The notes under the pieces were generated by a model. It was not told where the DNA came from. It searched no databases and was given only the letters and a program-made list of their open reading frames with translations. A DNA stretch of 64,000 bases, taken from Methanolobus bombayensis (GTDB lineage Archaea > Halobacteriota > Methanosarcinia > Methanosarcinales > Methanosarcinaceae). Position 1 is the first letter of the stretch. Each line of letters begins with the position of its first letter. Shown one piece after another: positions 52,653-64,000 of this stretch. The position numbers and the translations under genes are program-made. The stretch spans positions 1 to 64,000 of the forward strand of contig NZ_JAGGKD010000010.1 of NCBI RefSeq assembly GCF_017873415.1, written 5' to 3'.

Positions 52653-53120
52653 ATGGATAACAACGGACAGATCACTATAGATTATCTGATAGGAATTATT
52701 ATTTTCCTGTTCGCTGTCATCTTTATATTCAATTACACTTCCGGAATATTTACTCCATTTCACTCAAATTCTGATGAAATAACCCTTATAGCTGACAGGA
52801 CATCCACCGCACTTGTTGAGAAAATACTTAGTGAAGGTGACGAAACCGTCCCAAACATGCTTAATAAAGACAAAACTGATGATTTCTTCACAGAACTGGA
52901 CACTAATTACGATTCATACATTGACTATCTGGGACTGACCGGTTCATATCTTAGATATGATTTCAATGTTACACTTGAGAACCAGACATCTACGATCAAT
53001 ACGGGAGGAAAAGTGATTCCCCGGGGAGTAAACGTAGGCCAGACAAAACGCATAGTTCTCATCAGAAATGATGACAACGGAGAAACAGAGACAGCAATAA
53101 TGTCTTTCAGGGTGTGGTAA
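52653..53120 (+). CDS. Type IV pilin-like protein, cassette A gene 1
   Basis: The 155-residue product has a very short N terminus, the motif NGQITIDYLIG, then a hydrophobic helix (IIIFLFAVIFIFNYTSGIF), and an extracellular domain with sequons. This is the layout of archaeal pilin or pseudopilin subunits with class III signals, and it recalls haloarchaeal DUF72xx pilin-like families. Its counterpart in cassette B is the gene at 57459 (KGQIAVDFLLG). AT-rich promoter DNA lies at about 52565-52595. It is first of six tightly packed genes. Confidence 0.75.
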   Translation: MDNNGQITIDYLIGIIIFLFAVIFIFNYTSGIFTPFHSNSDEITLIADRTSTALVEKILSEGDETVPNMLNKDKTDDFFTELDTNYDSYIDYLGLTGSYLRYDFNVTLENQTSTINTGGKVIPRGVNVGQTKRIVLIRNDDNGETETAIMSFRVW

Positions 53121-53121
53121 A

Positions 53122-53733
53122 ATGTTCAGGAAAAACTCCCTGATGTCTGACAGAGATGCGCAGATGCATACACTTGAGGCTGTTATGGCTGCACTGATAA
53201 TGGTAGGAGTGATCGTATTTGCCGTTGAAGCAACTTCCCTGACACCACTTACATCATCAACTGCAAACGCACACATCGAAGCCCAGATGCAGACCATGGG
53301 ACAGGACATGCTGAATGCTCTTTCATATGCACCTTACGGACACACCTCTGCCCTGAAAAGTGACGTTTTGAACTGGAACGGACTCGAATATGTATGGAAC
53401 GGGACAGCATATGAATCGCGATCCTCAGTGAATTCCACTCTTACAAACAGTTCTCTTGTTGATATGTTTAATTTCATTACGACACCAAGAGGAATTGCAC
53501 ATAATGTTCATTTCGCATGGATAAATGAAGATGGAGTATCAATATCAAGATCTTACATATACAATGGAGACCCCTCGGACAATGCAGTAATAGTTTCAAA
53601 AAAAGTTATCCTTTCTGACTATGAAGTGGCAAATGTGTCATCCTTTGCGACAAACACAGCTATTCCTGATATCGATAACAGCACCGGATTTTACAATATA
53701 GTCAATGTAAAAATGACACTCTGGAGAATGTGA
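53122..53733 (+). CDS. Type IV pilin-like protein, cassette A gene 2
   Basis: This 203-residue product has the N-terminal motif DAQMHTLEAVMAALIM, which starts a single hydrophobic helix, then an extracellular domain with several N-x-S/T sites and a C-terminal KMTLWRM. It pairs with the cassette B gene at 58412 (KGQLHTLEGLGAAVLM; C terminus RLTTWKI). GGGTGTGG at the end of gene 1 serves as the ribosome-binding site. Confidence 0.73.
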   Translation: MFRKNSLMSDRDAQMHTLEAVMAALIMVGVIVFAVEATSLTPLTSSTANAHIEAQMQTMGQDMLNALSYAPYGHTSALKSDVLNWNGLEYVWNGTAYESRSSVNSTLTNSSLVDMFNFITTPRGIAHNVHFAWINEDGVSISRSYIYNGDPSDNAVIVSKKVILSDYEVANVSSFATNTAIPDIDNSTGFYNIVNVKMTLWRM

Positions 53734-54611
53734 TCACATTGATACAGACCAAAAAGATTAATTCAGATGATAAAGCACAACTGCTCCTGATTGCAGGATT
53801 CGCTGTAGGCGTAGGTATAGTCGTGCTGACGATCATGCTGAACAATGTGATCTATGCCAGCAATATTGCCTCTGAAGCAAGTATTGATACATCGCGCTAC
53901 GAAATTGCAAATGCGGCCCAGATAACAACTGAAGCATATGAAGATGCATACAGATATGCAACCCTTAACGGAAGTTTCAACAACACAGATTTTGAAAATT
54001 ACATTGGATCATATTCTGAAATGGCAGAGAAGAATTTTGCCATGTCCGGATTTACCTACAATATAGAAAACAATACACTAAATGAGGCATACTTTACCCG
54101 GAATGGTCTGGCTGGCGGGAGAGACGACTGGACAGTTATAAAAAATATCAACACAACCAGCGGATTTGCAGTGGAAATACCAGATGTTTCACGCCTGGGA
54201 AACAGCACGAACAGTCTGACAATAGCAATAACTAACAGATCAGGACTACTGTGGTCACTTGATTTATACAATTCCAGCGGGAACATAAACATCACTGTCT
54301 CTGACCAGTCATCAGTAATCGGTACTTACACCGCTTCAAGTCATATTAATATTACAGGGGACAGGATCGACTTTTCAACGCCTGAAAACTTCTATTTCAA
54401 CAGCCATACCGATGGTGGCGATTATTCTATCAATATCCTTAACGGAAGCAATGCAGTTGGTTATTGCAGCTTTTCAGGAACCCAGACATCAGGAGACCCT
54501 TATGTTTTTGCTAGATACTGGATTGTCAATCCTTCCGTAGAAATGACATCCGGCGAAATGAGAATTGTTCGAAATACTCCGATATCCCTGCCAGGGAGGA
54601 ACATAGGATGA
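53730..54611 (+). CDS. Type IV pilin-like protein, cassette A gene 3
   Basis: The 293-residue product starts at GTG, overlapping the preceding stop by four bases, with GGAG just upstream. The N terminus KAQLLLIAGFAVGVGIVVLTI forms a membrane helix, followed by a large extracellular beta-rich region with many sequons. Cassette B has a shorter equivalent at 58921 (SGQWIALSGLVISLI). Function is structural or assembly-related by context only. Confidence 0.7.
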   Translation: MITLIQTKKINSDDKAQLLLIAGFAVGVGIVVLTIMLNNVIYASNIASEASIDTSRYEIANAAQITTEAYEDAYRYATLNGSFNNTDFENYIGSYSEMAEKNFAMSGFTYNIENNTLNEAYFTRNGLAGGRDDWTVIKNINTTSGFAVEIPDVSRLGNSTNSLTIAITNRSGLLWSLDLYNSSGNINITVSDQSSVIGTYTASSHINITGDRIDFSTPENFYFNSHTDGGDYSINILNGSNAVGYCSFSGTQTSGDPYVFARYWIVNPSVEMTSGEMRIVRNTPISLPGRNIG

Positions 54612-55084
54612 TCAGGAAACTCATTGATAATGAGGATGCTGTATCCATTTCAGTTGGATTCATACTGACATTTTCAATAAGTGTGATCATGATAGTAATT
54701 GTCCTCAGTTCTTTCTATTCCCTGATGGATAATGCCGAACAGACAGTTATGCATGATGAATTTGAGATACACGGAAATGACATTGCTGTCAGGATAGCAA
54801 CAATTGACACCATGGTAGGTTCAATGGAAGATTCAGGATCAAATCTTGAAGAGATAAGATACGATTTTTCTCTGCCTTCAAAAATTGCAGGCAAACCTTA
54901 TTCCATAGAGATAGTCAACAGCACCAGGGACATAGTTTTCATTTCAGATGAAAGAGAGAGAACTCAGGTGAAAGTTCCCTATTTTGCAGAAAATACCCTG
55001 GTAGTCTCAACCACAGTACAGAGCATAAAAGGCAATTTTGTAATTGCATACGAACCTGAAACAAATATCATAAATATCTACTGA
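54608..55084 (+). CDS. Type IV pilin-like protein, cassette A gene 4
   Basis: This 158-residue product has the N-terminal NEDAVSISVGFILTFSISV, a pilin-like signal followed by a hydrophobic helix, then a domain with EFEIHGNDIAVRIATIDTMVG and a C-terminal strand rich in Asn and Ile. It overlaps gene 3 by four bases, with GGGAGG upstream. Its cassette B counterpart is the gene at 59382 (EEGVSILFEYILFSL). Confidence 0.73.
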   Translation: MIRKLIDNEDAVSISVGFILTFSISVIMIVIVLSSFYSLMDNAEQTVMHDEFEIHGNDIAVRIATIDTMVGSMEDSGSNLEEIRYDFSLPSKIAGKPYSIEIVNSTRDIVFISDERERTQVKVPYFAENTLVVSTTVQSIKGNFVIAYEPETNIINIY

Positions 55085-55102
55085 AAAACCGGGAATTTAC
55101 AG

Positions 55103-55879
55103 ATGAAAAAAGAGAAAAGCCTGTTCCAGACAGAAGATGCTGTCTCGGAAGTTGTGGATTTCAGTATAACTCTGGGAGTTATGCTCCTTGCAATAGCAGT
55201 GATAGCTCTTGCAGGATACCCTATGGTCCAGCACATGAAAGAGACGGGACATATGGAAAACATAAGGCAGAGCTTTTCAGTACTCACCCCTAACGTGAAC
55301 AAAATAGTATTCGGTAAAGCACCTTCCCAGTCAGTGGAACTGAAGATGTATGGTGGAACGACCTACGTAACCGGAAGCAGTTATATGAATATAAGTATGG
55401 AACACTGGAATGAATCTTCTTCGTTCCTTGAAACCACATCATATGAAAGACAGCTGCGCATGATCGAAAACCAATATGAGGACACATCAGTTGCCTACGA
55501 GAATACCGGTGCATGGGTAAAATATCCTCAAGGAAAAGCGTTGATGATATCAAAACCAGCCTTTGCATATGACAACCATTCCCTGGTAATACCAATGGCA
55601 ACGATAACAGGTTCAAAAGGGACTTCAGGTTCAGGACTTATTCGTGTGATAGCTGATGGTGGACAACTTGCAGTTGAAACCTATACCAACGTATCAAAAG
55701 TTGAAATTACCATGTCCAGTGAATACTACGAAGCATGGGAGAAGTACTTTGATGACTCGCTTGAAATGACAGTCACAGATGTAAATACCACAACAAATAC
55801 CATCCATGCAGAGAAGAATTACAACCCTAACATAGATGTGTTCATAACAGTTTCACCCATGAGCGTGACCGTTGAATAA
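55103..55879 (+). CDS. Type IV pilin-like protein, cassette A gene 5
   Basis: The 258-residue product begins with a lysine-rich leader, then EDAVSEVVDFSITLGVMLLAIAV, close to the haloarchaeal pilin signal motif, and a conserved stretch QSFSVLTPNVNKIVFGKAPSQS. The same block recurs in gene 6 and in cassette B gene 5, so these three are one subfamily. The remainder is a secreted domain ending VSPMSVTVE. Confidence 0.75.
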   Translation: MKKEKSLFQTEDAVSEVVDFSITLGVMLLAIAVIALAGYPMVQHMKETGHMENIRQSFSVLTPNVNKIVFGKAPSQSVELKMYGGTTYVTGSSYMNISMEHWNESSSFLETTSYERQLRMIENQYEDTSVAYENTGAWVKYPQGKALMISKPAFAYDNHSLVIPMATITGSKGTSGSGLIRVIADGGQLAVETYTNVSKVEITMSSEYYEAWEKYFDDSLEMTVTDVNTTTNTIHAEKNYNPNIDVFITVSPMSVTVE

Positions 55880-55903
55880 AAACAATACAAGGAGGATCAT
55901 ATC

Positions 55904-57352
55904 GTGAAAAACTTCTTCAGATCACAAAAAGCAGTATCATCAGTAGTTGGTATGATAATGATACTGGCACTTACGATCACATCTGTCAGTGTGATCTTCC
56001 TTTATGGGGTACCTACGATCTATGAAATGGAAGACATAGCAAACGCTCAGAAAGTGGAACAGGCATTCACAGTACTGGACTCCAGAACAAGTAAAGTCGC
56101 CCTTGGAGAATCACCGAGCCAGACAACTTCCCTGTCAATGATGGCAGGAGACTTAAAAGTTAATGGTAACAATGAATCCTACAATTCCAGCAAGATTGTC
56201 ATAATCTCAGTGGATATAAACGCCACATGGTACAACAGTTATAAAAATAACAGGCACAGATGGGGTAGCTGGAAAAGTTACACTTCAAACCCGGAAATGA
56301 ATGAGTTCAATGCCTCCATGGGAAGCATAGTCTATAGAGACAACGACAGAATCATAGGCTATGAAGGCGGAGGAGTCTGGTCAAAATATCCTACCGGAAA
56401 ATCAGTAATGATATCACCTCCGGAGTTCCATTATAATGGTGAAACACTGACATTGCCTGTAATGAGAGTTCAGGGAGACTCACTGCACAGTGGAAAATCA
56501 GATGTCGACATCACTGTCAGTTCTAATAACATGCCTGTAGTACTATATCCTGACCCGGGTTCAGATAACAGAAGGACAAATCCTCTTACATCAGACAAGG
56601 TTATTATTTACATCAAGAGCGATTTCTATAATGCATGGGCCGACTATGCCAATACACTTGCCTATGCAACTGCCACAACCGATGACTACAACAGTACCGC
56701 AGTAGTTGAACTCGAAGTTATACCTGCAATGGGAAAAGACTCATTGAAGTCTGCTTTTAAAGTAGGATCTGTGAATCCTTCTAATCCGGAACCAATATAC
56801 AATTTCTCCTTTGACCTTGAAGCCAGGGCATCACAGGGACTTAATCCAAGCAACTATCAGATAACTGCTACATCAGGAACAAAGACACTTACATATACCC
56901 TTGCAAAGAAAGGTGGTGCCAACCAGCTACTTCTTGATGTTGAATATGAGGATACCTCAGTAGGCAGTGTTGAAACATGGGAACATAATGGTATTTTTGT
57001 AGTGAACGGTGCAAAGGATGATCAATCTTCCACAGTAGACCTGCTTTCAAAAACATATACATTGGAATATGATGAAAATAATGATTTTTCATGGGATAAC
57101 GATTCATCCATCAGCCTTGGACCAAATGTAGATTACTCAAAAGGCGATATTATGCCACTTTATAATCTTACGCAACATTATATGAAACTCATTACAATGG
57201 ACGGTTCGGTGCTGTTTACTCTCCAGCAGCCAGGACACTCTGACCCTGTGGATTATGATGAGTCGACTCTTACTTTGTACTATGACGGGATGCCGGGCAG
57301 TATAACATATCTTCACGTTAGCAGAAATGATCTTTCGGTAAACTTAAATTAA
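55904..57352 (+). CDS. Type IV pilin-like protein, cassette A gene 6 (enlarged)
   Basis: At 482 residues this is the largest of the pilin-like proteins. It has the N-terminal QKAVSSVVGMIMILALTITSV, then EQAFTVLDSRTSKVALGESPSQT as in genes 5 and B5, and about 200 extra C-terminal residues forming another secreted domain. It starts at GTG with GGAGG nine bases upstream. It closes cassette A and is a second member of the gene 5 type, likely by duplication. Confidence 0.75.
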   Translation: MKNFFRSQKAVSSVVGMIMILALTITSVSVIFLYGVPTIYEMEDIANAQKVEQAFTVLDSRTSKVALGESPSQTTSLSMMAGDLKVNGNNESYNSSKIVIISVDINATWYNSYKNNRHRWGSWKSYTSNPEMNEFNASMGSIVYRDNDRIIGYEGGGVWSKYPTGKSVMISPPEFHYNGETLTLPVMRVQGDSLHSGKSDVDITVSSNNMPVVLYPDPGSDNRRTNPLTSDKVIIYIKSDFYNAWADYANTLAYATATTDDYNSTAVVELEVIPAMGKDSLKSAFKVGSVNPSNPEPIYNFSFDLEARASQGLNPSNYQITATSGTKTLTYTLAKKGGANQLLLDVEYEDTSVGSVETWEHNGIFVVNGAKDDQSSTVDLLSKTYTLEYDENNDFSWDNDSSISLGPNVDYSKGDIMPLYNLTQHYMKLITMDGSVLFTLQQPGHSDPVDYDESTLTLYYDGMPGSITYLHVSRNDLSVNLN

Positions 57353-57426
57353 AAACATAGAGGTTATACTTACAAAAGTGCAGGAATGCACATTTCAAAC
57401 TGTATATTTTTTGTTTTAACAAATCA

Positions 57427-57440
57427 TTTTTATATTATAT
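57427..57440 (+). promoter_or_regulatory. Promoter of pilin-like cassette B
   Basis: A strong TATA stretch (TTTTATATTATAT) lies about 25 bases before the ATG at 57459, so transcription should start at or next to that codon, giving a leaderless mRNA. It marks cassette B as a separate operon. Confidence 0.55.
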
Positions 57441-57458
57441 ATGGCATATATTCTAGAA

Positions 57459-58415
57459 ATGATTGATGAAAAAGGTCAAATTGCAGTTGATTTCCTCCTG
57501 GGGATATCGTTATTCCTTATCGCTTTAACCTTTACAGTGCAATTCATTCCGGGTATGTTCATATCAGGATCTGCAGGTGAAAGTAGTCTCGACTATACTG
57601 CATACCGCACAGCCACAGTTCTTGTGGAAGACACAGGATGGTGGGGAAACAGTACAAGTAGTGGTACTGACTGGGAGGAACATCCCGTGAGCATTATGCG
57701 AATTGGTCTTGCAGTTGACGATGATCCAAGCTCTAAACTTACAAACACCCCGAACCTCATTTCAAGGAACAAGACACTTGAAATGATGAATGTGGACGAG
57801 AAAACATTCATAGAGATGATGGGACTCTACAACAATGTCGATGATACTCCATTTTCCTATGGTTACAACATATCATTCAAACAGAATGGAAATGTCCTGA
57901 TGCTAAACAATACCAGCATTGTAAGAGGGCAGATAATCCCTAACTATCAGGAATCAACAAAGATAACACGCATAGTCCTTATGGAAAAAGGCACTATTGC
58001 AAGTTTTACAGGAGATAATCTTACAAGTGAGCTGGCTAATACAGCAACCATCAATGTAACCGGTCCTTTTGAGGAAAACATAACCATCCGGATAAGTGAT
58101 CTGAATCTTACAGGCTCGTCACCAATGTTCCTGAATGCAAGTCTGGAAGGAACTACATTGACACGAGCATCAAATTATACAATGTGGAAAATGGATGGAT
58201 GGGACAAAGAGCCTTTTAATGGGTCACTATCTTCAGGAGATATTATATCATTTGATTTTGACAAAGAACTTTTCAGTACAGGTACTGAATGCAGACTTGA
58301 CCTTGAATTCATTAACGTAAGCCTGCCAACTCCCGGGCCTCCTTTTACAAAATATAACAACGAAAGCGCCCCTTATTACGAACCTGCATATCTCGTTGTG
58401 GAGGTGTGGCAATGA
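57459..58415 (+). CDS. Type IV pilin-like protein, cassette B gene 1
   Basis: The 318-residue product begins MIDEKGQIAVDFLLGISLFLI, the same layout as cassette A gene 1, but its extracellular domain is about twice as long. I chose the ATG at 57459 because the TATA box makes it a leaderless start and it gives the short N terminus expected; the ATG at 57441 lies just after the TATA box. The gene ends in an ATGA overlap with the next. Confidence 0.74.
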   Translation: MIDEKGQIAVDFLLGISLFLIALTFTVQFIPGMFISGSAGESSLDYTAYRTATVLVEDTGWWGNSTSSGTDWEEHPVSIMRIGLAVDDDPSSKLTNTPNLISRNKTLEMMNVDEKTFIEMMGLYNNVDDTPFSYGYNISFKQNGNVLMLNNTSIVRGQIIPNYQESTKITRIVLMEKGTIASFTGDNLTSELANTATINVTGPFEENITIRISDLNLTGSSPMFLNASLEGTTLTRASNYTMWKMDGWDKEPFNGSLSSGDIISFDFDKELFSTGTECRLDLEFINVSLPTPGPPFTKYNNESAPYYEPAYLVVEVWQ

Positions 58416-58933
58416 ACGATAAAGGACAATTACATACCCTCGAAGGATTGGGTGCTGCCGTTCTGATGACACTGACAATCCTTACGATCTCACAGAGTAC
58501 AATGATCGTCACACCACAGAACGAGCTTGCCATTGATGTCCATCTTGAGCAAATGAGTTCTGATGCGCTTACCGTAATGGATAGAAATCCTGTAGATTCT
58601 GCCCAGTATAATCTTACAGAGTGCATTGCATGTTGGGACATGAATGAAGCAGATTACCCAACAGATACTGCGGGAAATCTTGATGAACTTGATGCAGGAC
58701 TTCGATATCTTTTACCTAATGCATTGTACAACGTTGACCTGGCATACATAGAAAACGATGATCTGAAAGTTGATAAGGCCATCATTAACGGACCCGCCGG
58801 AAAGAACGCAGTGGTCACAAGACATTTCGTAACACTCACAAATTCAACCGTTTCTGAAATGGGAGGCGGCTGGAATCTTGGAGATAATGAACTGAAAGTA
58901 GTAGAAGTGAGGTTGACAACATGGAAGATCTGA
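58412..58933 (+). CDS. Type IV pilin-like protein, cassette B gene 2
   Basis: This 173-residue product starts MNDKGQLHTLEGLGAAVLMTLTI, matching cassette A gene 2. GGAGGTG five bases upstream fixes the ATG at 58412, which overlaps the preceding stop. The extracellular part has CIACWD, a possible disulphide or metal pair, and ends VEVRLTTWKI like its cassette A partner. Confidence 0.73.
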   Translation: MNDKGQLHTLEGLGAAVLMTLTILTISQSTMIVTPQNELAIDVHLEQMSSDALTVMDRNPVDSAQYNLTECIACWDMNEADYPTDTAGNLDELDAGLRYLLPNALYNVDLAYIENDDLKVDKAIINGPAGKNAVVTRHFVTLTNSTVSEMGGGWNLGDNELKVVEVRLTTWKI

Positions 58934-59385
58934 GAAAAGATACAAGTGGTCAATGGATAGCACTTTCAGGTCTTGTTATATCACTCATAATCATAGGACT
59001 TGCCGTACTGGCAAATCAGGCAGCACTGGCAGGATATCACTCGTCCAATGCAGCTCTTGAATTCCCCAAGGAGAACATAAGAGAGCTTAACCAGCACACC
59101 AGAGATAATGCACAGACAATAAAGGATATGGCATTTTACATGAACAGCACAACCAATGAAACTGTTCCTGTTGCCTTTGAGCAGTTGTTTGACAATTACA
59201 GCACGCAGATGCAAAAGCTCTATGCTGTGCACGGGGAAGTTGTAGATGTGTCTCTTGTATCCATAAATTCCACAACCGGGAATTATACCATGGAAGATAT
59301 TGACATGGTCTTTGTAAATATCACATACGATGACGGTAGAACTCACTACTCAGCAGAGCCTGAAATTATCGAGGTGATGGAATGA
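58921..59385 (+). CDS. Type IV pilin-like protein, cassette B gene 3
   Basis: The 154-residue product has TSGQWIALSGLVISLIIIGLAVL as its membrane segment and a helical then beta extracellular region with five sequons. It overlaps gene 2 by 13 bases and gene 4 by four. It corresponds by position and N terminus to cassette A gene 3 but is half as long. Confidence 0.7.
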   Translation: MEDLRKDTSGQWIALSGLVISLIIIGLAVLANQAALAGYHSSNAALEFPKENIRELNQHTRDNAQTIKDMAFYMNSTTNETVPVAFEQLFDNYSTQMQKLYAVHGEVVDVSLVSINSTTGNYTMEDIDMVFVNITYDDGRTHYSAEPEIIEVME

Positions 59386-59825
59386 AACGACTGTTTGCTG
59401 ATGAAGAAGGGGTTTCAATCCTTTTCGAATACATTTTGTTCTCCCTGATATGCATCGGTTTCTTTATGATAGTGAGTGTCAACTCTGATGAGATATTCAT
59501 GCAGACACCTAATGAAGTTGTGATGCAGAACGAGATGAGCGATATCGGAAACATGATGAGCACGATGATAACGGATATGTATCTCATTCTTCCGGCAAAC
59601 GGCCAGATTGATACGAAATACGATATCCCGCCTAAAGTCGGTACAGAGACATACATCATCAATGCGGATATTGCCTATACGGACCAGATAATTGAATTGG
59701 TCTCATCAGATTCAGGAAAGAAAGTAAGAGTTACGATCGGTGGAATTGCTACGACAATGCCGATCAATGGTACTGCATCAAGCAGTTCAACAAATCACAT
59801 GATCAGTTATGACTCGAGAAGATAG
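59382..59825 (+). CDS. Type IV pilin-like protein, cassette B gene 4
   Basis: The 147-residue product begins MKRLFADEEGVSILFEYILFSLICIGFF and continues with EVVMQNEMSDIGNMMSTMITDM, paralleling cassette A gene 4 (VMHDEFEIHGNDIAVRI). It overlaps its neighbours at both ends by four and 17 bases, indicating tight translational coupling. Confidence 0.72.
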   Translation: MKRLFADEEGVSILFEYILFSLICIGFFMIVSVNSDEIFMQTPNEVVMQNEMSDIGNMMSTMITDMYLILPANGQIDTKYDIPPKVGTETYIINADIAYTDQIIELVSSDSGKKVRVTIGGIATTMPINGTASSSSTNHMISYDSRR

Positions 59826-60549
59826 AAGTAATGCAGCAGTTTCCGAAACACTTGGATATATCCTTTTATTTGCAATAGTGACCCTTTCAATGGGTGTTAT
59901 CTATGCAATAGGATATCCTGCGCTGCAATCAAATATGGACGCGAATGTTTTTGAAAGTGCAGAACAGAATTTCATTGTTCTCCAGAGCAACATGGAAAGA
60001 GTGGCCTTTGACCAGACACCTGTAAAGGTACTCAAACTAAAGCTCCAGAGTTCTTCTATAGAAGTTAGCAATGAGTCAGCCATATCAGTAACAACAAGCG
60101 ATGGTTTTTCGTGGAATGGAGCGACCGGTGAGATAGTATTCTCTAAAGATGAGAAGACAATTAGTTATGAGAATGGAGCGGTTTTCAAGAAATATCCACG
60201 TGAGGCAACTGTGATGATATCTGAACCTTCTATATATGCCACATCATTTGAAAACACAACTGTGACAAACATAGGAATCGTGTCTGTTAACGGTCATTCA
60301 CAATTATCAGGAAAGGGAATTGCCACAGTAAATCTCAAGCACAACTCAAGCAGCATGAATATGAGTTCATCAACTACCGATGTCATTGTACTCATAAACA
60401 GCACTCATGCTTCCAAATGGAAAGAATACCTTGAAGAAGCAGGTTTTTCAATAGATAATAACGCAACAACATCTTCAAGTGTTTCTGCTCATATCAACGA
60501 TACAATGCTTATCATGAGTAATCACGATGTTGATGTAGACATATCATAA
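59809..60549 (+). CDS. Type IV pilin-like protein, cassette B gene 5
   Basis: The 246-residue product starts with NAAVSETLGYILLFAIVTLSM, then EQNFIVLQSNMERVAFDQTPVK, the block shared with cassette A genes 5 and 6. The secreted domain is Ser/Asn-rich with many sequons. It is the last gene of cassette B; a hairpin with T-rich DNA follows. Confidence 0.74.
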   Translation: MTREDRSNAAVSETLGYILLFAIVTLSMGVIYAIGYPALQSNMDANVFESAEQNFIVLQSNMERVAFDQTPVKVLKLKLQSSSIEVSNESAISVTTSDGFSWNGATGEIVFSKDEKTISYENGAVFKKYPREATVMISEPSIYATSFENTTVTNIGIVSVNGHSQLSGKGIATVNLKHNSSSMNMSSSTTDVIVLINSTHASKWKEYLEEAGFSIDNNATTSSSVSAHINDTMLIMSNHDVDVDIS

Positions 60550-60716: not shown

Positions 60717-60744
60717 AAATAAATAAATAAATAAATAAATAAAT
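60717..60744. repeat. Tetranucleotide repeat (AAAT)7
   Basis: Seven perfect AAAT units lie between the two convergent transcription units. Such tracts can vary in copy number by slippage; no gene depends on this one. The other bases of 60604-60780 show nothing else of note. Confidence 0.85.
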
Positions 60745-60767
60745 TAAGCATTAATGTGTTAACTGAA

Positions 60768-60843: not shown

Positions 60844-63800
60844 TCAGCTAATACTTATCATACCTTTTGGCCTGACGGCCAGTACATCTCTTGCAACCAG
60901 CACATCACTCACGTTGTTGATATTATAGGCATATGCAGTTATGTAAGCTCTTCCGGCAATAGCACTTGTAAAGTCCACAGTATCAGAACCTACCACTGTT
61001 ACATTGATCGGGTTCTCGTAGTTTCCAAAATATCCGATGTTACTGTAAAGATATACAAATCCATAGCTTGAATTACCCAGTGTGTCTTCAAGTGAGAGAG
61101 TAAGAGTTGTTGAATTTTCGATCAGCATTATTCTTTTGTCAGCGTCCATATCAAGACTTCCCAGTGAATAAGAAGTCACACTGGCAGCACCACCGCCAAC
61201 GCTGGCAGCTCCGCCACCACCTACTACTACAGTGATATTCTCACCACTAAGATCCGTATATGTAACAGTTGAAGTTGGCATAATAATCGGCACATAACCT
61301 GCACCATCCACTTTCATCTGATACCATATTCCCCATTTATCACCCGGACCCATATTTGGCAACTGCCACTCAAGAGAAGAAGTGGAACCTGATGTAGTGA
61401 TTGTAGGCTCTGCATTACCTGCAGGAGGTGATGTTGGAGTATAAAAAACAGTCTGATTACCTGTTGTTGCATTACTACTACCTGATTGGTAAGTTGCCTT
61501 TGCAACCGCAAGAGGTGTTATATAATTGTGAGGCACCTGGAGATCAAGTACCGGACCTCCTGCAGAGAAATTAGTTATCTGCATTGCAATTCCCTGGAAG
61601 ATATCTTTCAGGACACTGGAATTAGGTGCGAAATAATATTCACCGCCGGTTATAGTTGCAATCTCTTCAAGGATCGGGTCAACTTCTGCTTCGCTGTTAC
61701 CAAATCCCACTGTATAGATCACAGTATCATTGTCTTTTGCCCTGTATGCTTCCTCAAGTAGTGAATGATAACCTGCATTGTCAAGTCCATCTGTCATGAT
61801 GACTATAGTGGAGTTACCATCGGCAGATGAGAGTTCATTGTTAGCCAGATACAAACCTTCATCGATGGCTGTGAGTCCGTCAGCAGTTATGGTATCAATC
61901 GCATTTTCAAGATGAGACAGTGAATCGTTCTCAAATGTTGAAGTTACACTGCCTGTCCATTCATTCCAGGAAACAGGAGTGGTTACCGGTTCTTGATCAG
62001 TGTCACTGAAAACAATGTCAAAACACTCATAATATCTGGAGGATGATGATTCAACTTCAGTAACAATGTCCCAGGAAGAACCATCCCATCTCTGGATATT
62101 AAGATCATTATAACCATCTGAAGCCATTAGGAAAATAGCATCTGATGAAGGATCAGGAGTCAATTGAACCCAGCGTGTGTAGGCACTTCCAAGACTTGAT
62201 GCAGAAGATTCAGAACTCCATGAACTGCCATCCCATGTACGATACTTAGGAACTGAATTAGACTCACCCCAGACCACAATACCTGTACCACTGGACTGTT
62301 CAAAAGCAACATCCACAGATCTGCGACTGTATTCATAGACATCTCTCTCTACTCTCAGAGGTGTTTCCCAGGAAGAACCATCCCAGTCAGTAACATAAAT
62401 GTCATAAGACCTGTCCTCTGCTGCAAGTATTATATCATCCGAATAAGGATCTGCTGCCATCTTTATCCAGTATACTCTTTCATCAGGGGTATACATGTCT
62501 GAAGGAGAACTCCATGAGTTTCCGTTCCATATGCGGTACCGTACAGTATCAGTATCCATATCAGACCAGACAACCATTGCCCTTCCTGAATCCTGCTCAT
62601 ATACAACATCAAAACACTGATAACTTGTTGCCCTGGCATCATCCGTAATGAAAACAGGGTTGCCCCACGAATCTCCATCCCAGACCTGTGCACGCATATC
62701 CCTTTCATCATCCAAAGTTACAAGGATCATCTCATCGGAATCAGGATTTGCTTCAAGTCTGATCCAGCCGACATCCCCATCTCCGGGATTAGTATCGTCC
62801 ACTTCAGCATCCGAGCTCCAGGAAGAGCCATCCCAGACACGATACATAGGAACACCATCATTTTCATCCTTATCCATGTAAGTTATTATTGCATCACCGG
62901 ATACCTGTTCATACTTCAGGTCAAAACCTCTCTGACCATAAGAATCCAGATTGTTGGAGAACTGGCTAACAGTCCCCCAGGAAGAACCATCCCAGACCTG
63001 TACGTTAACATCATAACTTGTATCTGAAGTTGCCATTATGATCTCCGAGTCCGTTGGACTGGATTCTAGAACTACATAAGAAGGACTGGCACCTATATAA
63101 TTGGCAGAATCTTCAGATGACCACTCAGTACCATCCCAGGTTCTTATCTTTGGTGTGCCGCCACCTCCTCCACTATCATAATATGCTGTCATTACAGTAT
63201 CAATACCAGTTGTGGAAACATTGACTGTGAATTCCGTGTCTGCCTGGACACCAGCACCTTTGGAAACATCAATGTTGTATGTTTCTCCAGCAGAAAGCAG
63301 TGATGAGACTTCACATACACTTGTACCGGTATCTGATGAAAGCACATCAACACCATCATAGAGAGTGACATTCACCGTAGTAGAATCATCCCAGGATAAG
63401 TTGAATACATAATAACCATCTGTGTCCGGTGTGAAATATCCGGTCCATGTACTGTTTGCAAGCACATAACTGGTCTGGTTGGCACTTGAAACAACATCCT
63501 CGTAGCTGTAAAGCGCAAGTCCTGCTTTGTCACCTCTTGTTTCATCAAAACTTGACATGAAGGCATGTGAGGATAACTGTGTTGCACTCTTTTTGTCTAT
63601 GTAAGTTGTGATTGTGAAATCCACCAGACCTGAACCCTTACCCGTTACATTTACAGTCCAGTTACCTTTTTCTACTGTATCTCCGTCATCATCAGGATAA
63701 ATATAGGACAGTGGATGGATCCATATGTATTCCCCGGTTGTGCTGTTTGGATAGTAACCCGTTGTATTATCATTGACACCATATACCATTCCGGATGGAC

Positions 63801-64000
63801 TTGTAAGCTGAAGATCGAAATCCGCAGAACTGTCATCCCAATCAAGCTGGACCTTAAGATCGTTGATCGTTTCATTGATAAATATAGTATCCTCGAAATA
63901 ATCCGGTTCCACCACGTTTACAGTACAATCATAACCATCTGCATCCAGATCAACAGTATTTGAATAATATTCAATACGAGTACCATTCCAATATACTTCC
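60844..64000 (-). CDS. Giant VWA-domain surface protein with WDGSSW repeats, 5' end outside window
   Basis: The frame stays open to the right edge, so the true start lies beyond 64000. Reading inward: a jelly-roll-like domain (LKVQLDWDDSSADFDLQLTSPSG), a VWA-like helix/strand (HAFMSSFDETRGDKAGLALYS), another beta domain, four repeats of about 100 residues (63155 to 61955), each with two WDGSSW-type motifs, then the rest of a VWA fold: GLTAIDEGLYLA (metal Thr), IVIMTDGLDN (metal Asp), VIYTVGFGN. A Gly/Ala patch and a C-terminal beta domain follow. It converges on pilin-like cassette B and is probably an adhesin. Confidence 0.8.
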   Translation of the reverse strand, partial: EVYWNGTRIEYYSNTVDLDADGYDCTVNVVEPDYFEDTIFINETINDLKVQLDWDDSSADFDLQLTSPSGMVYGVNDNTTGYYPNSTTGEYIWIHPLSYIYPDDDGDTVEKGNWTVNVTGKGSGLVDFTITTYIDKKSATQLSSHAFMSSFDETRGDKAGLALYSYEDVVSSANQTSYVLANSTWTGYFTPDTDGYYVFNLSWDDSTTVNVTLYDGVDVLSSDTGTSVCEVSSLLSAGETYNIDVSKGAGVQADTEFTVNVSTTGIDTVMTAYYDSGGGGGTPKIRTWDGTEWSSEDSANYIGASPSYVVLESSPTDSEIIMATSDTSYDVNVQVWDGSSWGTVSQFSNNLDSYGQRGFDLKYEQVSGDAIITYMDKDENDGVPMYRVWDGSSWSSDAEVDDTNPGDGDVGWIRLEANPDSDEMILVTLDDERDMRAQVWDGDSWGNPVFITDDARATSYQCFDVVYEQDSGRAMVVWSDMDTDTVRYRIWNGNSWSSPSDMYTPDERVYWIKMAADPYSDDIILAAEDRSYDIYVTDWDGSSWETPLRVERDVYEYSRRSVDVAFEQSSGTGIVVWGESNSVPKYRTWDGSSWSSESSASSLGSAYTRWVQLTPDPSSDAIFLMASDGYNDLNIQRWDGSSWDIVTEVESSSSRYYECFDIVFSDTDQEPVTTPVSWNEWTGSVTSTFENDSLSHLENAIDTITADGLTAIDEGLYLANNELSSADGNSTIVIMTDGLDNAGYHSLLEEAYRAKDNDTVIYTVGFGNSEAEVDPILEEIATITGGEYYFAPNSSVLKDIFQGIAMQITNFSAGGPVLDLQVPHNYITPLAVAKATYQSGSSNATTGNQTVFYTPTSPPAGNAEPTITTSGSTSSLEWQLPNMGPGDKWGIWYQMKVDGAGYVPIIMPTSTVTYTDLSGENITVVVGGGGAASVGGGAASVTSYSLGSLDMDADKRIMLIENSTTLTLSLEDTLGNSSYGFVYLYSNIGYFGNYENPINVTVVGSDTVDFTSAIAGRAYITAYAYNINNVSDVLVARDVLAVRPKGMISIS

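Follow-up and report, generated by a model that had tools for sequence, protein, structure and literature searches.

What are two sets of pilin-like genes in the same order doing side by side, with no machine for assembling either of them nearby? The question is raised by the first 64,000 nucleotides of contig NZ_JAGGKD010000010.1 of Methanolobus bombayensis (GCF_017873415.1), the stretch that was analysed and is called the window here. In it, cassette A (six genes, 52653-57352) is followed by cassette B (five genes, 57459-60549), both encoding type-IV-pilin-like products in identical order. We prefer the view, at a probability of about 0.7, that A and B are anciently diverged pilin modules of one euryarchaeal kind of pilus, whose tips would be built in trans by a motor encoded at another locus (C9), B acting together with a secreted von Willebrand factor A (VWA) adhesin encoded next to it.

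Pilin-like Nature of the Cassette Products

All eleven open reading frames listed in an earlier, sequence-only reading of the locus were found where, and in the order in which, it had placed them (Table 1). As it had also described, neighbours within a cassette overlap (by 4-17 bp) or nearly touch (gaps of 1-24 bp). The Pfam series common to A and B is DUF7287, DUF7288, DUF7261 (weak), DUF7266 and DUF7289; A6, the extra member of A, adds DUF7308, which is absent from B. The pairing of every B gene with one in A stands as well. In an all-against-all phmmer comparison of the 11 proteins, partners are mutual best matches throughout (A1-B1 4e-10, A2-B2 5e-8, A3-B3 1e-5, A4-B4 6e-7; in the DUF7289 family, A5-B5 5e-19, A6-B5 1e-18 and A5-A6 7e-26), and off-diagonal pairs reach ~1e-4 at best, so that partners are closer to each other than to unrelated pilins. 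Partner identity is just 22-28%.

The N termini are of the pilin type. In 11 of 11 window proteins a leader of 5-16 hydrophilic residues, with G or A at -1 and Q or V at +1, is followed by a single hydrophobic helix and no further transmembrane segment. The leader is of the class III (archaeal type IV pilin) kind in all of these and in most homologues, and this anatomy, repeated across homologues, rules out ordinary signal peptides or membrane anchors. B5, the only window pilin modelled with AlphaFold2 (AF2; pLDDT 88), has a 63-residue N-terminal helix (4-66) and then a beta domain, which is the expected extended helix with a beta-rich head. Sequence-profile searches of the PDB with DUF7289 and DUF7288 gave no match, an NCBIfam scan of the window pilins gave nothing useful, and no credible Pfam or NCBIfam match to pseudopilins of the type II secretion system (T2SS; Gsp families) was seen among them. 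A literature search on DUF7289 found no paper. The predicted products are members of named yet uncharacterised pilin families, within a known kind of pilus.

Some relatives of these genes are broken into at least two frames: A6 in L056, L219 and L131, A2 in L218, and A1 in L071. The split frames suggest decay of some A copies in those genomes. Cassettes of a third class (L076, L079, L086:10143-16822, L121, L122 and L124) are marked by two very large pilins, a DUF7261-like one of 560-600 aa and a DUF7266-like one of 500-608 aa.

Age of the Two Cassette Classes

The sequence-only reading had proposed two parallel minor-pilin or tip sets that arose by block duplication. The parallel paralogous sets are there and a tip role is probable, as argued below; the local duplication event did not survive. 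A recent copying of A into B within Methanolobus would explain why the two are adjacent, paralogous and in the same order, and the genus does show younger A-A' tandems. The trees and the distribution of the classes reject it nevertheless, and we regard it as extremely improbable. The low A/B identity already speaks against it. In trees of DUF7288 and DUF7287, class B forms one clade (support 99) that spans four families, f1 (three genera), f2, f3 and f5, on a long branch of ~1 change per site, with a divergent sister in family f4; class A is equally old. In the DUF7288 tree the order's class A groups with two families from outside the order (95). A single A + B clade for the order is compatible with an approximately unbiased (AU) test (p 0.28); the A/B split therefore dates to the base of the order or earlier, and the trees allow none inside Methanolobus. 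Each class also occurs without the other: many genomes have A only, some have B only (G133, G091, G106), and most carry just one class. Judged from these trees, both classes are older than the families of the order, and A/B is not a recent local duplicate.

Within Methanolobus, the cassettes lie beside mre11-rad50 in the arrangements A-B, A-A' and A-B-VWA-A'. Tandem six-gene cassettes have also arisen separately, in G193 of family f14 (L176). In family f4, the B-like cassettes (L081, L082, L083, L223, L224) have a DUF7288 gene of 1458-1610 aa, against ~175 aa in class B, and most f4 genomes with such cassettes have VWA homologues elsewhere in the genome.

A Candidate Motor Encoded Elsewhere

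Within the 20 kb that surround the cassettes there is no ATPase or platform gene, as expected from the earlier reading, and none is found near the cassettes elsewhere in Methanolobus and its order. That reading had also anticipated haloarchaeal relatives. The same gene series does occur there, and it stands directly behind pilB-pilC (L162, L163, the second copy in L164, L166-L169, L179-L181; we take these loci to be haloarchaeal from their kinship, their base composition and a Haloferax volcanii control). In another family of the phylum, a complete six-gene series adjoins pilC-pilB (G320, L174).

Seven T2SSE-type ATPase genes are present in the host genome. Sorted by neighbours, one is a PINc protein, one belongs to the archaellum, those of the C3 and C4 loci have large pilins of their own, and C9, C5:102755 and C5:233675 are without pilins. 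At C9 the PilB gene (C9:31770-33881) is part of a PilB/PilC pair, on a contig other than that of the cassettes. Co-occurrence of cassettes with PilB/PilC-type genes, a check proposed by the sequence-only reading, was counted in 186 genomes of the order. A C9-type PilB was scored where a match reached E <= 1e-200; G074, whose match of 69% identity lies where a contig ends, was also counted as positive. C9 PilB and DUF7287 occur together in 105 genomes, DUF7287 alone in 11, PilB alone in 7 and neither in 63 (phi 0.80); at the genus level the same counts are 18/1/1/7 (p 7e-5). For the C5:102755 and C3 PilBs, phi with DUF7287 is 0.05 and -0.10, which rules out C5- and C3-type PilB as the general motor partner. 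In the PilB tree, the C9 type groups with the cassette-adjacent PilB of G320 (99/97). From its co-occurrence with the cassettes, C9-type PilB/PilC is the likely motor, acting in trans. Haloarchaea offer precedents for PilB-PilC acting with pilins in trans (PMC6491452; also a census of archaeal pili, Makarova, Koonin and Albers, 2016, PMC4858521).

In one genome (G046, L090:3157-8271), a MinD/ParA-like ATPase gene lies directly upstream of C9-type pilB-pilC, which is where the FleN/MinD partner that has been proposed for pili of clade 2 would be expected. At L044:7277-11882, in the host's own C5, there is an orphan ATPase of 892 aa; its multi-span partner (648 aa) has no T2SSF match. The clade of this ATPase is extremely distant (branch 5.7), is common in the order and has no pilins nearby.

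The host genome has one prepilin peptidase gene and, beyond one in the C3 locus, two stand-alone Pilin_N genes. The latter bear on how much of a pilus the cassettes would supply. Each cassette could encode the whole filament body of its own pilus, major and minor subunits together, instead of a tip or priming complex. The 2016 census proposes extra pilins as possible structural components of the filament and assigns a predicted major pilin to the PilB4-type motor (PMC4858521), and a TATA box of its own precedes cassette B. Five to six dissimilar single-copy pilins per operon, however, fit minor pilins better, several of them have large head domains (to 482 aa here and 560-1610 aa in relatives), and the stand-alone PilA-like genes could serve as the filament body. 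We consider a whole filament per cassette unlikely.

The VWA Protein of Cassette B

Downstream of B5 lies a gene for a large VWA protein, and the sequence-only reading had the doubled arrangement facing it. The gene is indeed there; its tie is to B specifically and not to the doubling. Independent genome-wide searches of the 186 genomes, with B1 and with the C-terminal 374 residues of the VWA protein, found both in 40 genomes, B only in 3, VWA only in 3 and neither in 140 (phi 0.91; a weak VWA match in G150, 2.9e-16, was left uncounted). All 31 genomes with a canonical B have the VWA protein, as against 1 (G181) of 74 that have a DUF7287 cassette and no B. In Methanolobus it is present in 15/15 genomes with B vs 0/12 without, and the match is also perfect in genera g7 and g10 and in family f5. 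The gene adjoins about 25 of 26 canonical B loci that have enough flank. It converges with B in f1 and f3, and in f5 it runs in the same direction as B; in the sole non-adjacent case (G006) it lies elsewhere in the genome. The VWA proteins encoded next to B are mostly 1500-2200 aa long. In one Methanomethylovorans locus (L105) the VWA gene adjoins A, yet the matching genome (G141) has B1 on another contig. The counts rule out the VWA protein as a partner of the doubled arrangement or of A: the VWA gene belongs to cassette B, not to A.

The protein carries a Sec signal peptide and an N-terminal Ig-like Big_1 domain, and its C terminus is without a membrane segment. Two starts of a metal-ion-dependent adhesion site (MIDAS; DRSGSM) lie 22 residues apart (DRSGSMDPDYYAG.PLDVVLVLDRSGSM; window 60844-64000 and L038:10845-16739). 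The second opens a complete VWA domain (618-788), and a headless C-terminal half of a VWA domain follows ~1000 residues further on; in this region of L129, the match to Pfam VWA_3 does not start before profile position 57. The simplest reading is that an outer VWA domain would be split by an inserted inner VWA and further domains. In most members, though not in L129 and L130, a propeller with WDGSSW repeats forms part of the insert; in the VWA protein of the window it takes up about residues 1160-1570. In Foldseek searches the inner VWA matches VWA structures, and the propeller comes closest to lectins, those of Photorhabdus and fucose-binding ones (E down to 7e-12; TM, relative to the target, as high as 0.70). 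From its fold and motif, the propeller may bind sugars. The AF2 model of the VWA fragment has a pLDDT of 69.5, the first half of the split VWA being of low confidence and the packing of the two halves unsettled.

The pairing of B with one secreted protein could be taken to mean that B forms a pseudopilus, like that of T2SS, which exports the VWA protein or anchors it at the surface, rather than an extended adhesive pilus. The tightness of the pairing is in favor of this. The VWA protein, however, has a Sec signal peptide of its own, and 73 of the 74 cassette genomes without B are also without the VWA protein. Methanosarcinales are not known to possess an outer membrane for which a T2SS would be required, which further weighs against a pseudopilus. 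We think it very unlikely. The tie of the VWA protein to B and the anatomy of that protein suggest instead that B is a pilus-tip complex that can be exchanged and that works with an adhesin resembling PilY1.

A Proposed Model of Exchangeable Tips

The mechanism we propose would proceed as follows. In the Methanolobus order, the pilin modules would have become separated from the pilB-pilC motor. The A and B subunits would be cut by the single prepilin peptidase, and the detached C9-type PilB/PilC would insert them into a growing filament, for which the stand-alone PilA-like pilins may supply the body as major pilins. The A and B modules would then build alternative tip or priming complexes with different properties. 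The tip protein of the B module would be the neighboring Sec-exported VWA protein, whose VWA frame would present an exchangeable, often lectin-like binding domain, akin to PilY1 with minor pilins in bacteria. Cleavage, assembly in trans, location at the tip and adhesion are all steps that we infer.

Several points weigh against this account. The pilus itself, the tip location and contact between the VWA protein and the B pilins are predictions from sequence. The head domain of B5 is without a solved counterpart (Foldseek of the model gave no PDB match at E<=0.001), and because of this the pilin assignment rests on topology and the N terminus. As to the motor, the genomes are related, so the p-values overstate the independence of the data, and of the three detached motor loci the co-occurrence test covered C9 and C5:102755. 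Eleven genomes have DUF7287 and no C9 PilB, 4 of them at least 90% complete; 7 have C9 PilB and no detected DUF7287, although one of these (G077) has a truncated B1. The haloarchaeal cassette-linked PilBs form a separate clade that is not the direct sister of C9 PilB, and C9 PilB matches the Pfam domains PilB3_N/PilB3_C.

Three things appear to be new: the history of two classes, a candidate for the motor in trans, and the specific pairing of class B with a secreted protein of split VWA that is often lectin-like; the supplementary tables of the 2016 census may already list part of the inventory. Among archaeal pilins most lack annotation, and little is known of the proteins at the tips of archaeal pili. 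With B and the VWA protein tied almost one-to-one, the latter is a concrete candidate, open to test, for the tip adhesin of methanogens and of Methanoperedens-like methane oxidisers. The analysis also names a probable assembling motor, and the system would be a natural example of a single motor that serves several tip modules in exchange for one another.

Features of the Locus

The 106 bp between A6 and B1 are counted to a B1 start at 57459, which relatives favor over the start at 57441 given by the open reading frame caller. The TATA box that the sequence-only reading assigned to cassette B is borne out by its conservation: in 12 of 12 Methanolobus A-B loci compared, that of the window included, TTTATAT precedes the start of B1 by 30-33 nt. 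A run of AAAT tetranucleotide repeats lies at ~60730-60760, between B5 and the VWA gene.

Table 1. Cassette genes and associated features, in window coordinates.
Feature	Position	Strand	Evidence and remarks
A1, DUF7287 pilin-like, 155 aa	52653..53120	+	Pfam PF23958 E 5e-35; leader MDNNG|QITID
A2, DUF7288 pilin-like, 203 aa, QMHTLE	53122..53733	+	PF23959 E 6e-47; alignment of 24 homologues
A3, DUF7261-like pilin, 293 aa	53730..54611	+	PF23922 E 2e-4, below cut-off; best match B3, 1e-5; position kept in relatives
A4, DUF7266 pilin-like, 158 aa	54608..55084	+	PF23928 E 2.5e-12
A5, DUF7289 pilin-like, 258 aa	55103..55879	+	PF23960 E 3e-24
A6, DUF7289 + DUF7308 pilin-like, 482 aa	55904..57352	+	PF23960 E 9e-24; PF23985 E 1e-28
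TATA box of cassette B, TTTATAT	57429..57435	+	Conserved ahead of B1
B1, DUF7287 class B, 318 aa, C-terminal extension	57459..58415	+	PF23958 E 5e-16; relatives in 43 genomes of the order
B2, DUF7288 class B, 175 aa	58406..58933	+	PF23959 E 2e-22; class B clade 99
B3, DUF7261-like class B, 154 aa	58921..59385	+	PF23922 E 0.04 only; A3 match 1e-5; position conserved
B4, DUF7266-like class B, 147 aa	59382..59825	+	PF23928 E 0.009 only; A4 match 6e-7
B5, DUF7289 class B, 246 aa	59809..60549	+	PF23960 E 6e-36; AF2 model
VWA protein, candidate adhesin, ~C-terminal 1051 of 1964 aa inside window	60844..64000; gene start beyond window at contig ~66738	-	Domain scans; genome-wide tie to B

Comparison with Known Systems

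The closest known system is the euryarchaeal clade 2 type IV pilus, for which the 2016 census describes a pilin set of its own, the 'PilB4' type (PMC4858521). The haloarchaeal series fits the pilin set of this pilus as presented there, a set of the same kind behind pilB-pilC. The haloarchaeal locus may correspond to the named PilB4 locus of H. volcanii (HVO_1160): H. volcanii carries DUF7287 and DUF7288, and the PilBs linked to haloarchaeal cassettes have long frames, a trait also described for PilB4. A duplication-prone pilin of 250-550 aa, arCOG02911, is part of the PilB4 type in that census and would fit DUF7289. The window cassettes agree with the haloarchaeal pilB-pilC locus in family set and order. 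They differ in that the pilin module stands apart from the motor, without an adjacent pilB-pilC, and comes in at least two classes in the order. Class B, moreover, has a dedicated VWA protein, which the main text of the census does not describe.

The PilB3-PilC3 system of H. volcanii with PilA1-6 (PMC6491452, PMC4371748) is similar in having a pilin-free motor operon with pilins in trans, and the PilB3 domains of the C9 PilB of Methanolobus add to the likeness. Its PilA pilins, in contrast, do not form a conserved cassette of 5-6 genes of dissimilar families. The DUF2341 proteins of Methanococci and their relatives are, like the VWA protein, large secreted proteins encoded in a pilus locus, and the census proposes them as PilY-like tip adhesins (PMC4858521). 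They have a different domain, and the VWA proteins gave no DUF2341 match in Pfam scans.

In bacteria, the PilY1/minor-pilin complex of Myxococcus xanthus combines dissimilar minor pilins with a Sec-exported VWA/beta-propeller protein (PMC7541494). Class B likewise combines a Sec signal, VWA and beta-propeller domains, and a genetic tie to minor pilins. Myxococcus has several such clusters per genome, and the three PilY1/minor-pilin clusters are proposed to give different tips (PMC7541494). The differences are that here the propeller is lectin-like (of the Photorhabdus PLL type) and sits inside a split VWA, that the motor is archaeal, and that no sequence homology to PilY1, its C-terminal domain included, was found, Pfam scans of the VWA proteins giving no PilY1 family. 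We would tentatively, at somewhat less than an even chance, see in class B and its VWA protein an archaeal tip system parallel to the PilY1/minor-pilin tips of bacteria, in which one motor would serve interchangeable tips and a VWA frame would hold different inserted ligand-binding domains.

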